Below are positions 9,885-55,585 of a stretch of 64,000 nucleotides of DNA, in pieces (within the stretch, counting starts at the first letter, position 1; each line of letters begins with the position of its first letter). Origin of the DNA: Planktothrix paucivesiculata PCC 9631 (lineage in GTDB: Bacteria > Cyanobacteriota > Cyanobacteriia > Cyanobacteriales > Microcoleaceae); the NCBI RefSeq assembly GCF_900009265.2, contig NZ_LR734982.1, positions 102,684-166,683 of the forward strand, in the 5' to 3' direction. Below the pieces are notes generated by a model. That model was not told the DNA's origin. It saw only the letters and a list, made by a program, of their open reading frames with translations, and did not search any database. The translations under genes and the position numbers were made by a program.

Positions 9885-10079
9885 GGAAAGAAATAAAGAC
9901 TTTAAGATTTATTTTCTTAGCTCTGAATTTTTCCAAAATGTTCCCTGGGGTTAAACTTGATCCCCTTTATTGGTAAAATAGCGTTTTGGGGACTCCAATC
10001 CATCTAAAAAATCTGGCATTTGTAACGGGACAAAGAAGAAAAGTATTTTCTTCAAAACTCCCAGTTTAAGCAATGCTGA

Positions 10080-10397
<318 letters not shown>

Positions 10398-15133: not shown

Positions 15134-16537
15134 CTATAAATCATCGCGAGACAGTAACGTTGCCCAAAAATAGCCATATCCCATAAAACTTTGATTAAGC
15201 ATACTGAGCGCTAATTTCCTATAAACTGGTATAACTCTGGATGGACTTTCTAAAAACCATAATTCAGGTAAATACATCAAAATTGGTAAATGTCCTAAAG
15301 GAGCATCGGGACTTTCATTAATTTTATTGAAAGAGAAAGAAAACCAGCCATAGTTTAATTTCCACTCCCCTACACGCTGACAAAATTCTTTCCAGACTTG
15401 TTCATCATAAGTAGAAGTACCTCCTAACTCTCGATAAATTCTCTTTTGTGTAGTAAAACCAAATTTATTATCACTATAAGATGACCAAAGTTGATTAATG
15501 GTTTTGAGGTCTTGTGAGGGAAAGCTGATAACATCAGTAACTTGGAGTTTACCTTTATTATTTTCTCCCATAATTTTACACATGATTTCTGTTGTTTCCC
15601 AATCAGCGGCATACCAATTTTTAGTTTTTAAGAACCGTTCTAAGTTTCGATAATCAATTCCACAGACCGAAAGTAATTCAATCGGCTTAGATCTAGTTTC
15701 AATAACAGAAAAAGTCTGATCGCTTCCTAGCATTTTTAGCCATTCCTGCATAGATTGGGGACGATCACTAGAGTTCAATTCTAAGCCTTTCAAAATAGCT
15801 TTACTAACAGCATTACTAATTACACGGTTTAAGCTTTTTGGTACTTTTATTTTTTTAATTAACTCTCTTTTTTCAGGGCTTTCTTGTGCATATTTACCTG
15901 TAACGAGATAATATAAAGTTGCAGCTAAAGCATATATATCGATGGTCGGTTGACAATTTCCTTGCTTTTGTTCAGGAGCAATAAACTGAGGATGGCCATA
16001 ATTATTCAAGTCTAAGCTCTGAGGTGAAATTTCTATTGCTAGTCCCAAATCAATTAATATGGGTTTATCCTTATCACTAATGATAATATTACCAGGATGA
16101 ACATCTCGATGAACAAATCCATTTTGATGAAGAATATCTAACGCTTCACCTATTTTTAAGATATATTTTAAAGCAACTTCTTCAGAAAGATTCTTTTGAC
16201 TCTTAACTATATCCTTCAAACTTTCACCACAAACTAAGTCCATGACAATACAGGGAATAGAAAACTCTTCATCTTCTTCATCAAATAAATCTGTTACTTG
16301 AACAATATTAAGATTTTGAGGTAATTTTTTTAAGATTTGAGCTTCTTTAATAAATGCAACTGTATACTTACTATAATTTACATCTTTAATTAAGTCATCA
16401 TTTGGGGTTTTAATAACAACCGAATCGTTTAATTTTAGGTGTAGTGCTTTGTAGGTTACAGCAAAGCCTCCTCGCCCGATCTGCTTTTCAATTATATACT
16501 TACCATTATTTAACTCTTTTCCTGGATTCCAAGTCAT
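15134..16537 (-). CDS. Ser/Thr protein kinase with C-terminal GUN4 domain
   Basis: A 467-residue fusion. Residues about 10-270 are a eukaryotic-type Ser/Thr kinase: glycine loop GRGGFAVTY, ATP-binding lysine K43 (VVIKTP), catalytic loop HRDVHPGN (D145, N150), metal motif DLG (163-165, the variant common in cyanobacteria) and APEQ activation segment. Residues about 295-467 are a GUN4 domain: LERFLKTKNWYAADWET, DLKTINQLWSSYSDNKFGF, APLGHLP and the terminal LLSRDDL. GUN4 proteins bind protoporphyrin IX and Mg-protoporphyrin and stimulate Mg-chelatase, so a tetrapyrrole-responsive kinase is a reasonable inference, not shown. No membrane segment is seen. The gene is alone, convergent with the atp operon. 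Confidence 0.9.
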   Translation of the reverse strand: MTWNPGKELNNGKYIIEKQIGRGGFAVTYKALHLKLNDSVVIKTPNDDLIKDVNYSKYTVAFIKEAQILKKLPQNLNIVQVTDLFDEEDEEFSIPCIVMDLVCGESLKDIVKSQKNLSEEVALKYILKIGEALDILHQNGFVHRDVHPGNIIISDKDKPILIDLGLAIEISPQSLDLNNYGHPQFIAPEQKQGNCQPTIDIYALAATLYYLVTGKYAQESPEKRELIKKIKVPKSLNRVISNAVSKAILKGLELNSSDRPQSMQEWLKMLGSDQTFSVIETRSKPIELLSVCGIDYRNLERFLKTKNWYAADWETTEIMCKIMGENNKGKLQVTDVISFPSQDLKTINQLWSSYSDNKFGFTTQKRIYRELGGTSTYDEQVWKEFCQRVGEWKLNYGWFSFSFNKINESPDAPLGHLPILMYLPELWFLESPSRVIPVYRKLALSMLNQSFMGYGYFWATLLSRDDL

Positions 16538-52954: not shown

Positions 52955-53272
52955 TTAGTTTACGCTTAATCAGGACTTACACATGAGGCTCAAGAAACCG
53001 GGTTTCTGCGTAAGTCCTGATTAAGATGAAATTCGAGATGTTGCTGAAAAGTTTGTGTTAGCTAACTGGTATGACCCGAAAGTGACAATGCAATTTTTTA
53101 ATGACTCTTGAACGTTTAACAAAGCAATTGGTTAACTTGGCTGCTAGTTTATCACTGGAAACCCTTGCCATTTTCTGTGCCAGGTATTGAGTTCGGAAAA
53201 AGCCGATGTTTGTGTAAAAAAAGACTAAAAAATAAGCTTGACAAAAAGCCTGAAGTTCTTATCTCCTAAAGG
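52955..53272. other. intergenic region with MITE and possible gene remnant
   Basis: 318 bases. After the 61-bp element come two short frames in different phases: one reads RDVAEKFVLANWYDPKVTM to a stop at about 53110, the other MTLERLTKQLVNLAASLSL to a stop at 53190. Together they look like a decayed gene, but no family could be named. Confidence 0.4.
52965..53025. mobile_element. 61-bp miniature inverted-repeat element with perfect 16-bp ends
   Basis: CTTAATCAGGACTTAC (52965-52980) and GTAAGTCCTGATTAAG (53010-53025) are exact reverse complements. The centre holds AAGAAACCGGGTTTCT (52992-53007). It is 10 bases after the gdhA stop and resembles the larger element at 19616-19718. No coding capacity; probably a non-autonomous MITE. 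Confidence 0.8.
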
Positions 53273-55585
53273 TTACAAGTCTTTGCGCGAGAGAAGAGAC
53301 AGACGCCACCGCCCACCGCCGCCCACCGACTCCTCCGATCCGACGAACGCCACCAACAACGGGAAGTGGCCCACAGGGGCTGCTTCTCGATCATAAGTTA
53401 GGTCTTCGTAGTACAACCACTTCCCTTTTACGCGCCAACCGACGCGATCGCCAAACTTAAACCACAACCCCTGATTATACTTTCTTGTGCCTCCCAGACT
53501 CTGGTAAATTTCCTTCTGAACACTAAAACCAAACTTACCGTTACTATAATCCAGCCAAAGTTGGTTAATGGTGCGTAAATCTTCACAGGGTAAATTTTCT
53601 AGGTCTTCTGGGTCAAGCCATTGCCCTTCTTCCTTACGCACCGTTTGAAGCATCATACGATAGGTTTCTTGATCGGCTTCTTTCCACTGTTTATTTTTCA
53701 GATAGTTTTCTAACTGCTGATATCTTTGCTTTTGTAATGTTGTTTCAATTGTTAAATCAACTTTTATGAGTGATTCTTTGAGGCATTCATCGGCTAGTTT
53801 AACCGCTTCTTGATTCCCGATTTTTAATAATTTACGAATTAAATTAGTCGGATTAACTTGAGCGCAATACAGTAAAATTGTTTCCTTCCACCAGGAATTT
53901 TGCCAATGGTTTAGCAATAATTCTTCTTGTTTTTTTGTTTTGATTTCTGCTGCTGCTAAATAACCTTGAAAACTCAAATGAGCAAATTCGTAATTCTCAT
54001 CATGCTTGACAATCAATTCGCTCACATCTACGATTTGATTCAAAAAATCCGAAGGGGCTACATTTGGAAAATCTAGGCTTTGGAGGTGAGTAGAAATCTG
54101 AGTTTCTAACGCCTGCCGTTCAACATTGGGCTGGTTCTGCACGACCAAAGCCAATGCCAGTTTTTGCAGCACCTGTTGACTTTCTGGGAAAGGCACTAAC
54201 ATATCAATGCCTCTATATCGGGGTCGGTCTTTAAGTTGTAGGGTGAAGATATCTTGATATAATTCGCTGCGTTGTTGTGGCAGTTGTTGACCCGCATAAC
54301 TACGGTGCAGGTTTGCCATAATGTTCAATAGCAGAGGGTTTTTAGCTAAAATCTCTAGTTCGGGGCGTTGGTGAAGCTGTTCTAGGAGATTAGCAGCATT
54401 GTTGTCAGCTATCCGCTTAACTTCTGGTATCTTGCTCCCAGGCCTAGCACAGCGTTCTTGAGCGAAATACCATTGTCGGACGAATCGTTCTCTTTGGTTA
54501 GCATTGAAGGGTTTAACAAAAAGCTTGCAACTTGGTGGGTTTGCTGCAATATAATCTTTATAACCTGCGGGGCGTGAGGTCAGGATAAACACCGCTTTTT
54601 GATAATCCGTCATTTGCTTGTCAAGCCATGTACTGACAGGTCTACGCCATTCGGGTTTGACTTCATCAAATCCATCAAACATAACCAGCATTTTCCCGTC
54701 TTTTAGCTGTTTTTTTGCCCACTGGGGCGGTAATTTTAGGTTAGTCCCTTCTGGCAAACTAGGAATGTGATGCTTTTCAATCAGACTGGGTAAATCTAGG
54801 TTCTGTTCAGTGGCGATCACTTTTTGCCATTTGCGGAGGGGTAACAGGACAGGCAAAAATTCAGGTGCTTTGTATTGGCGATGGCGACGTTCAGCATAGG
54901 TAGAGGTAATATGCTTGAGTAGCGTCGTTTTTCCGTAGCCACCCCAAGCCAAGATTGCCATACGACTGTAAACGGGATATTGCTTAACTTTCGCTAATAA
55001 GTCCCAAATTGTCAGTTCATTTGGTGCGCTTCCCTGTATTAGTTCTGAATCTTCTCGACGAAAACCAGCCGGCATCGGCAGTTCTTCTCCACTGATTACT
55101 CTGAGAAAATCACCACTGAGTTCTAATGGGACAAAAACATCAGATAGTAGAGGAACAAATGACCCGCGACTGTAGCCTTCGGTGCGATATTCACAGCAAG
55201 CACTTCCCTGACAGCGCAAATACTTATCCTCTGTCCCCGCCAGTTGCCACTGAATCGTCTGATCCGCACTCTCCAACCAACCCATCAGGGAATCAACATC
55301 TTTCCTGCCCCGTTCTTGATAAACTTCTCGCAAGCGCGTCAAAAAACTTTCAGTATAAGCAGCCCAAACGCCTGTTACGACCATTACGGGAAACATCAAC
55401 AACGCTTGTAGCCATTCTCTTTGGAGAAGAAAGGAAACAAATGCAAATCCACTTCCTCCGATCGGCATTAACTGAAGGAGGGTTTGGGTAAAGCCTTGAA
55501 CAATTTTACGCGCCTTGGTTGCTTCTACTTCTCCTGATGCAGGCAGATTTTTCTCTGAATCTTGTGACCGTTGCTGATCGCTCAT
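53273..55585 (-). CDS. membrane-anchored NACHT NTPase with C-terminal GUN4 domain
   Basis: A 770-residue STAND-type protein. Two hydrophobic segments (about 34-56 and 58-76) should anchor it in the membrane. A cysteine-containing region (CQGSACCEY, 125-133) follows. The NACHT NTPase has Walker A GGYGKTT (215-221), Walker B LVMFDGFDEV (300-309) and the sensor LTSRPAGY (R338), followed by helical repeats (about 390-600). Residues 621-770 are a GUN4 domain: NYLKNKQWKEADQET, DLRTINQLWLDYSNGKFGF, APVGHFPLL and terminal LLSRKDL. NACHT proteins switch on when a sensor domain binds a ligand or partner; GUN4 suggests tetrapyrrole or a related ligand. The outcome is unknown, and an immunity role is possible. 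Confidence 0.92.
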   Translation of the reverse strand: MSDQQRSQDSEKNLPASGEVEATKARKIVQGFTQTLLQLMPIGGSGFAFVSFLLQREWLQALLMFPVMVVTGVWAAYTESFLTRLREVYQERGRKDVDSLMGWLESADQTIQWQLAGTEDKYLRCQGSACCEYRTEGYSRGSFVPLLSDVFVPLELSGDFLRVISGEELPMPAGFRREDSELIQGSAPNELTIWDLLAKVKQYPVYSRMAILAWGGYGKTTLLKHITSTYAERRHRQYKAPEFLPVLLPLRKWQKVIATEQNLDLPSLIEKHHIPSLPEGTNLKLPPQWAKKQLKDGKMLVMFDGFDEVKPEWRRPVSTWLDKQMTDYQKAVFILTSRPAGYKDYIAANPPSCKLFVKPFNANQRERFVRQWYFAQERCARPGSKIPEVKRIADNNAANLLEQLHQRPELEILAKNPLLLNIMANLHRSYAGQQLPQQRSELYQDIFTLQLKDRPRYRGIDMLVPFPESQQVLQKLALALVVQNQPNVERQALETQISTHLQSLDFPNVAPSDFLNQIVDVSELIVKHDENYEFAHLSFQGYLAAAEIKTKKQEELLLNHWQNSWWKETILLYCAQVNPTNLIRKLLKIGNQEAVKLADECLKESLIKVDLTIETTLQKQRYQQLENYLKNKQWKEADQETYRMMLQTVRKEEGQWLDPEDLENLPCEDLRTINQLWLDYSNGKFGFSVQKEIYQSLGGTRKYNQGLWFKFGDRVGWRVKGKWLYYEDLTYDREAAPVGHFPLLVAFVGSEESVGGGGRWRLSLLSRKDL

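Follow-up and report, generated by a model that had tools for sequence, protein, structure and literature searches.

A conserved three-frame DNA element and a hypervariable tail at the end of GUN4 domains in a cyanobacterial NACHT protein and its relatives

What does a NACHT switch sense when the position of its sensor is held by a GUN4 domain? This question is raised by a gene on the minus strand of a 64,000-nucleotide stretch of DNA (hereafter the window) from the cyanobacterium Planktothrix paucivesiculata PCC 9631 (contig NZ_LR734982.1, positions 102,684 to 166,683), which encodes a NACHT-GUN4 protein of 770 residues. An earlier reading of the letters without database searches (the sequence-only reading) correctly placed GUN4 in the sensor position of the switch, and proposed that the protein gauges tetrapyrrole status or uses GUN4 as a protein-binding module in an immunity pathway. 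Directly after the GHLP motif of GUN4 we found a G/T-rich tract that is wholly different between most otherwise similar copies. This tract is joined in any frame to a conserved DNA element that supplies stops in every frame and mostly an '-SR-' end, and the GUN4-tract-element unit is present on many effector types. We lean, if only slightly, towards the view that the protein is a membrane-tethered STAND switch that would sense through a GUN4 scaffold whose hypervariable tip is produced by an active DNA process.

The gene and the features at its 3' end are as follows.

53276..55585, minus strand: NACHT-GUN4 protein, one frame of 770 codons
53360..53734, minus strand: GUN4 core, residues 618-742, ending at GHFP and without the canonical last helix (Pfam, alignment and models)
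53293..53359, minus strand: hypervariable tract of 67 nt, residues 743-764 plus one base of codon 765; its last 7 nt, TCTCTTC (53293-53299), already belong to the conserved element
53234..53299, minus strand: conserved DNA element, consensus TCTCTTCTCTCGCGTCGAGACTTGTAAACTGTAACATATAAGGGTTACAG..., extending beyond the stop codon into non-coding DNA
53273..53275, minus strand: stop codon used in the window gene, element offset +17 (used by 39 of 125 sites)
53266..53268, minus strand: staggered stop TAG of the second frame, element offset +24 (36 of 125 sites)
53259..53261, minus strand: staggered stop TAA of the third frame, element offset +31 (35 of 125 sites)
53250..53292, minus strand: two short inverted repeats of the element consensus, TCTCG/CGAGA and CTGTAAC/GTTACAG, both imperfect by eye in the window copy

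The peptide LLSRKDL at the end of the window protein had been taken as the end of a full GUN4 domain. Conservation instead ends at GHFP (residue 742), and residues 743-770 are composed of the hypervariable stretch followed by a reading of the element. Relatives end in LLSRKDL, FSRAKTCNL or SLAQRLVTCKI, peptides encoded by nearly identical DNA, that is, by one element read in three frames, of which LLSRKDL is one. The element measures ~65 nt and is conserved from -7 to about +58 around TCTCGCG, beyond the stop codons, with positions 0 to 33 conserved partly because our searches required them. Among 125 GUN4-linked sites, 110 end at the stops at +17, +24 or +31 (39/36/35). For the composition counts we left out the 15 sites with a stop elsewhere and 2 duplicate or very short tracts, which leaves 108 unique tracts; through these, GUN4 enters the element in the three frames about equally (36/37/35). 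Each frame mostly encodes '-SR-' near the protein end (34/36, 36/37 and 30/35), SR stands among the last 12 residues in 100 of the 108 tract-bearing proteins, and S766 and R767 are near-invariant in 96 aligned proteins.

A search with the element alone (34 nt, up to 3 mismatches) returned 42 of 386 genomes of the phylum and none for the reversed pattern. All except one of these 42 belong to the order of the window genome, and one genus carries the element in 15 of its 16 genomes. GUN4 lies within 900 nt upstream at 92 of 100 distinct element sites, in a set of loci fetched almost wholly by element matches. One of the eight sites without upstream GUN4 is truncated by the contig end. Two have kept tract and element after loss of the gene body, with a kinase (L221) or a gene start (L220) joined directly; at two more (L222, L225) the element follows a conserved gene without a Pfam family over the cut-off, and others lie in non-coding DNA. 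At L226, tallied as GUN4-bearing, GUN4 is deleted internally and the tract is kept. We regard the three-frame element and its tie to GUN4 as firmly established. The inverted-repeat pairs of the element are kept in 91% and 72.5% of cells, compared with at most 58.5% and 36% when slid, and double changes (1 and 33) are no higher than in the slid controls; a secondary structure of the element is a suggestion.

Several loci add detail on the element. At L221 (8963-9649) a truncated protein kinase is joined in frame via a short tract to the element, and a similar kinase gene stands at the matching place in L234, there with GUN4. Two elements follow one tract at L231 (~9990-10080) and L155 (~2510-2600), 51 and 70 nt apart; these pairs are duplications of the element itself. 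The window holds a second GUN4 gene (15134-16537, minus strand), a protein kinase with GUN4 and a longer tail ending in WATLLSRDDL, whose element DNA has decayed past the search pattern while the end peptide persists.

The tracts themselves have a median length of 67 nt (range 18-259). Over the three codon positions they contain G at.38-.41, T at.31-.34, A at.15-.20 (lowest at the third) and C at.10-.13, whereas the GUN4 coding sequence upstream is not G/T-rich (G.27, T.26). Gly, Val, Leu, Trp, Arg and Phe abound in the encoded tips. In the tracts, G, A and C form runs about as often as shuffling predicts. The other two frames contain ordinary numbers of stops (106 in 2256 and 126 in 2220 codons); the frame in use contains 0 in 2291 codons against 116.7 expected from shuffles, a zero that is partly definitional since the stop-position filter contributes. 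Counts on smaller sets of sites agree with these. That the tract is mostly unalignable and has almost no codon structure is a firm result.

Could such a tail arise through no active mechanism, by drift of a weakly constrained end with insertions and deletions, the element being conserved as a terminator or mRNA end in which three stops occur by chance? Some GUN4 genes do keep a similar end peptide on decayed DNA, among them the second window gene with its LLSRDDL-type end and others in the window genome, and two pairs of copies share identical tracts, as drift would allow. The G/T-rich composition, the near absence of codon periodicity and the equal use of three frames, next to conserved GUN4 coding sequence, speak against it, and so does the comparison of similar copies. 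We compared 12 pairs whose 120-nt flanks are at least 85% identical on both sides; members recur among these pairs, which are not independent. Eleven show tract identities of.37-.58 and one has identical tracts (1.0); random tract pairs have a mean of.453 and a 95% point of.581. Tracts at the random level sit beside flanks that are 85-97% identical, and the identities are either random or complete, not graded. We consider drift unlikely, although of the alternatives weighed here it deserves the most attention, and replacement of tracts as whole events is probable.

The window locus itself has a counterpart in a same-genus genome, with 88% identity across most of GUN4 and the downstream flank and 94% on the opposite side. 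There the NACHT part is absent, another short N-terminus takes its place (243 residues in all, with GUN4 as the only Pfam match) and the tract is different. A 166-nt piece (84%) around the gene start may be a remnant of the NACHT form.

Where do the tracts come from? Copying from the flanks was rejected as their main source, as only 5 of 104 tracts have a match of at least 12 nt to neighboring sequence; two of the copies, 24 nt of upstream sequence in L087 and 12 nt in L239, exceed all 40 of their own shuffles. For three tracts (two from the window genome, rated 97.5% complete, and one from a same-genus genome that is rated 100% complete and comprises 5 contigs) we found no second copy in these genomes, the next matches being 19-21 nt long with E-values of 0.2-0.5. 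This bears on the idea that tracts are exchanged by homologous recombination between GUN4 genes, with the GUN4 3' end and the element as homology arms. Such cassette shuffling would fit the mosaic flanks and the tandem GUN4 copies whose repeats are fused or deleted (L071, L072, L178). It moves tracts, however, and does not create them, while 108 different tracts have to be accounted for and the three just described have no second copy in their own genome. As the source of the diversity it is improbable, yet it may act in addition to tract creation. In the tandem GUN4-tract-element units of the window genome (L072 3029-3735 and L071 3900-4170), the second unit, at L071, has no GUN4 core, and the reading frame runs through the first element; recombination between repeats would be expected to leave such an arrangement.

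In bacteria, the diversity-generating retroelement (DGR) is the best-known means of targeted hypervariation at a protein tip. A DGR, or a divergent relative, could rewrite the tract from a template repeat and use the element as homing signal. Targets of DGRs, as far as the available parts of three studies describe them (PMC7517822, PMC10907252, PMC7159879), are likewise hypervariable at the gene's 3' end, remote and dispersed, and linked to effectors of the same types. Among 29 reverse transcriptase loci classified in ten other element-bearing genomes, a subset of the matches, 25 are of group II type, 3 of DGR type and 1 of another type; the three DGR-type loci, in G381 and G434, place such enzymes in at least two of the ten genomes, and frames of 357-383 residues in G344, G095 and G350 could be further ones. 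The tracts, however, cannot be aligned, range over 18-259 nt in varied frame and are G/T-rich rather than varying at the adenines of a shared template, and no adenine-only substitution at kept frame and length was seen. No template repeat was found for the three tracts in their two genomes either (best other match 19-21 nt, E > 0.2). In the window genome, the nine RVT_1 loci translated, of 11, all belong to the group II intron type. We judge a retroelement to be a rather improbable author of the tracts. The RVT_1 loci concerned, L060-L070, include several near-identical group II intron reverse transcriptase genes.

For the active DNA process that we favor, we propose the following course. The left edge of the element would be cut or nicked, untemplated nucleotides, mostly G and T on the coding strand, would be added with occasional copying of nearby sequence, and the ends would be rejoined to the GUN4 reading frame, where selection would keep open frames. 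The three-frame element would turn nearly every open junction into a finished protein. The deletions anchored at the element, namely the kinase-tract-element junction of L221 and the internal GUN4 loss of L226, count in favor of such a process. In the protein, a random loop would be displayed at the place of the canonical last GUN4 helix, beside the old ligand groove. Once a ligand, perhaps one from a phage, is recognized, the NACHT domain would be freed to oligomerize and act on the membrane. We put forward more tentatively, as a conjecture that may well fail, a cyanobacterial junctional-diversity system in which dedicated trans-acting machinery opens the element behind GUN4, adds G/T-biased untemplated nucleotides and rejoins the ends, so producing new tips for innate immune-type receptors. 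The element would be an adaptor indifferent to frame, and the variable module would be interchangeable among kinases, TIR, caspase and NACHT proteins, the window protein among them.

A number of observations weigh against this proposal. No enzyme for making tracts was identified, and no linked mutator gene was found; only GUN4 and kinase genes recur widely among the comparisons listed (20 loci and the window flank). Some copies are broken: stops come early or internally at L103, L120 and L196, and also within the GUN4 of L031. Tract composition is patchy, in that AC, CA and CC pairs are over-represented and T runs moderately exceed expectation, and a single random source is therefore not established. 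Because two pairs share identical tracts (upstream identity.983 and.940, downstream.940 and.553), turnover is not constant. Downstream similarity exceeds upstream similarity in many pairs and some downstream flanks resemble shared repeats, so that some of the pairs may owe their similarity to shared repeats or recombination and not to simple descent. The site lists behind the statistics used a loose 19-nt pattern and rely on the GUN4 link: at 3 mismatches this pattern gave 6 matches in the window genome against 8 for its reverse, and at 2 mismatches there were 2 control matches in 14 genomes. Finally, tract variation within a clone or species was not seen in collections holding one genome per species. 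A plasmid GUN4 locus in three strains is identical across 5348 bases and has no recognizable element, and for this reason gives no rate.

How does the tail affect the proposal that the protein gauges tetrapyrroles? By sequence, the GUN4 domain resembles solved GUN4 proteins, with a profile match to Gun4 1Z3X at an E-value of 3.5e-30. This likeness stops at GHFP, and residues 743-770 occupy the place of the last canonical helix. The helix that bears the porphyrin-binding arginine (R211 in Arabidopsis, presumably R214 in Synechocystis) is thereby replaced by the hypervariable tail in GUN4 domains of the window type. In Arabidopsis GUN4, R211A/E weakens porphyrin binding, according to the accessible part of PMC8967248. 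The position equated with Arabidopsis F191 is mostly Ile, Leu or Val, with residues matched by hand-counting along the alignments, and the F of the canonical GUN4 'LYF' is not conserved in tailed GUN4 proteins. On these hand-matched numbers, the alignment shows neither the last-helix arginine nor its aromatic partner. A model of the domain (53 sequences; mean predicted local distance difference test, pLDDT, 85.2) is of high confidence in the core and ~52 in the tract. It contains a short helix at domain positions 152-160 (residues 757-765; block mean 68), which covers the tract end and the first three element-coded residues. The sequence lends no support to the tetrapyrrole gauge, and the tetrapyrrole-sensor reading of the window GUN4 is weak, although porphyrin binding by tailed GUN4 domains could persist via other contacts. 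Tetrapyrrole sensing by fused GUN4 domains has been proposed (PMC7159879, in its available part), and the match of the core agrees with it. Given the loss of the canonical arginine with its helix and the mostly aliphatic aromatic position, a tetrapyrrole-gauging NACHT switch with an irrelevant tail strikes us as very improbable.

The remainder of the protein carries three further features.

54446..54961, minus strand: NACHT NTPase, residues ~209-380, with Walker A GGYGKTT, Walker B LVMFDGFDE and TSRP
55358..55480, minus strand: two predicted membrane helices, residues ~36-76 (hydropathy and low-confidence model helices)
55187..55222, minus strand: Y-L-R-C-Q-G-S-A-C-C-E-Y segment, residues 122-133 (sequence alignment)

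Both domains named by the sequence-only reading were borne out: Pfam matches above the cut-offs cover NACHT at residues 216-373 (E 3.6e-11) and, at the C-terminus, GUN4 at 618-749 (E 2.8e-40). The NACHT score of 43.6 bits, against a cut-off of 26.7, identifies a NACHT STAND NTPase domain. We aligned the window protein with 14 long relatives of 34-68% identity, whose existence argues that the NACHT-GUN4 architecture is no chance fusion. These 15 proteins conserve the NACHT motif residues, among which G216, G218, K219, T221, D304, G305, D307, E308, S337, R338 and P339 are invariant, along with much of the GUN4 core. A full-length AlphaFold model (15 sequences; mean pLDDT 76.8) shows NACHT and GUN4 ordered and residues 743-770 below 50. 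The two N-terminal transmembrane helices that had been claimed correspond to hydrophobic peaks at residues 36-54 and 58-76 (1.68 and 1.69; Kyte-Doolittle, 19-residue window) and to AlphaFold helices 45-54 and 58-75, which are of low confidence. Most N-termini in the alignment have a hydrophobic stretch, and hydropathy and model together make it likely that the protein is membrane-anchored. The CQGSACCEY patch is present as described and only partly conserved: Y122 is kept in 14 of the 15 proteins and the cysteines at 125, 130 and 131 in 7, 11 and 3.

Near-full-length relatives are scattered among genomes. Across 148 genomes of the order, the protein's eight best matches other than itself are 68 to 46% identical, and a named relative is found in Xenococcus sp. 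MO_188.B8 (69% in the best segment). In three same-genus genomes, with seven candidates scored per genome, the best matches span GUN4 only.

The GUN4-tail unit extends well beyond NACHT proteins. The 96 aligned proteins carry kinase (52), TIR_2 (11), NACHT (10), caspase (4) and CHAT (1) domains. The window genome contains 14 GUN4 matches, and plasmid-borne GUN4 genes appear in 39 records; on plasmids of Calothrix sp. NIES-4105 and Nostoc sp. CENA543 the GUN4 gene has a tract, and its element has partly decayed. A search of viral_contigs for phage copies, made with one exact 19-mer of the element, gave 0 matches. Two other GUN4 loci lie near MoxR ATPase genes, with elements absent or decayed; such a neighborhood is described as a setting of ternary conflict systems in the accessible text of PMC7159879. 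On a Cylindrospermopsis curvispora plasmid (L313 6519-9976), a MoxR ATPase gene is followed by that of an 828-residue protein with GUN4 at its end and a decayed element, CCTCCTGTCAAGACATGTA; this arrangement may be a ternary conflict system of GUN4 type. Around the window gene itself we found genes for a diguanylate cyclase, a Glu/Leu dehydrogenase-family protein, an esterase, a GGDEF-EAL protein, DUF29 and PIN proteins, and one that we take to be Dfp. A PIN toxin-like gene lies ~6 kb away and the scanned neighbors are mostly metabolic or signaling, on which grounds a defense-island setting was rejected. A PADLOC match to PD-T4-6 was likewise set aside, as it covers the GUN4 part only (residues 560-752) and is no evidence for a NACHT defense system. 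The proposed role of GUN4 as a protein-binding module in immunity draws indirect support from the effector fusions and the antigen-tip-like variable tail, and none from a defense island.

Taken together, the sequence patterns suggest that GUN4 serves kinase, TIR, NACHT and caspase proteins as a hypervariable receptor module, diversified at the DNA level in a manner unlike that of DGRs. We found no report of hypervariable GUN4 tails in the literature searched, which was without subscription papers and most preprints. If our reading holds, effector-linked receptors would be diversified without a template and regardless of frame, a second route beside DGRs that differs in mechanism and parallels vertebrate junctional diversity in its logic. 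It would make testable what GUN4 proteins beyond the Mg-chelatase cofactor sense, and would change the view of fused cyanobacterial GUN4 domains, so far described as tetrapyrrole sensors (PMC7159879, in the part available).

How does this arrangement compare with known systems? With the Gun4 magnesium-chelatase cofactor (PDB 1Y6I, 1Z3X) it shares the GUN4 core by sequence profile, but the last helix with the porphyrin arginine is replaced by the hypervariable tail. Junctional (N-region) diversity in vertebrate V(D)J recombination adds untemplated nucleotides of variable length in random frame at the tip of a receptor. The GUN4 tracts, known here from their sequence pattern, likewise look untemplated, vary in length and frame and lie at a receptor tip. 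Unlike V(D)J, the system is prokaryotic and has one junction, with no segment library seen and no recombinase identified, and its element serves all frames. Pol theta makes a random mix of untemplated and nearby-templated insertions (PMC4912351); it and the Abi polymerases (PMC9508834), going by the available portions of both sources, are analogues of template-independent synthesis only, with no such enzyme linked to the GUN4-tail loci. Cyanobacterial fusions of GUN4 to kinase, caspase, trypsin and TIR have already been published (PMC7159879, PMC1262709, PMC2853523). The accessible parts of these papers assign GUN4 to signaling or tetrapyrrole binding and are silent on a variable tail or DNA element. 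The antiviral STAND NTPases bNACHT and Avs, as outlined in the available parts of PMC12169576 and PMC10907252, likewise combine a central NACHT carrying Walker A/B with a sensor at the C-terminus, whereas the window protein has a GUN4 sensor with a hypervariable tail, and N-terminal hydrophobic helices in place of a recognized effector. There is also a likeness of form to DGRs with C-type lectin variable proteins (the cyanobacterial clade and Thiohalocapsa PB-PSB1; PMC7517822, PMC10907252, each in part), which share a hypervariable C-terminal sensor at the gene 3' end, partners of NACHT, kinase, TIR, peptidase or vWA type, and dispersed targets. The scaffold here is GUN4, not a C-type lectin, the G/T-rich tracts are unalignable and variable in length and frame, no template repeat was found for three of them, and a three-frame stop element closes the gene. 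By this analogy, tailed GUN4 looks like a second hypervariable sensor module, beside the DGR-diversified C-type lectins on similar effectors.

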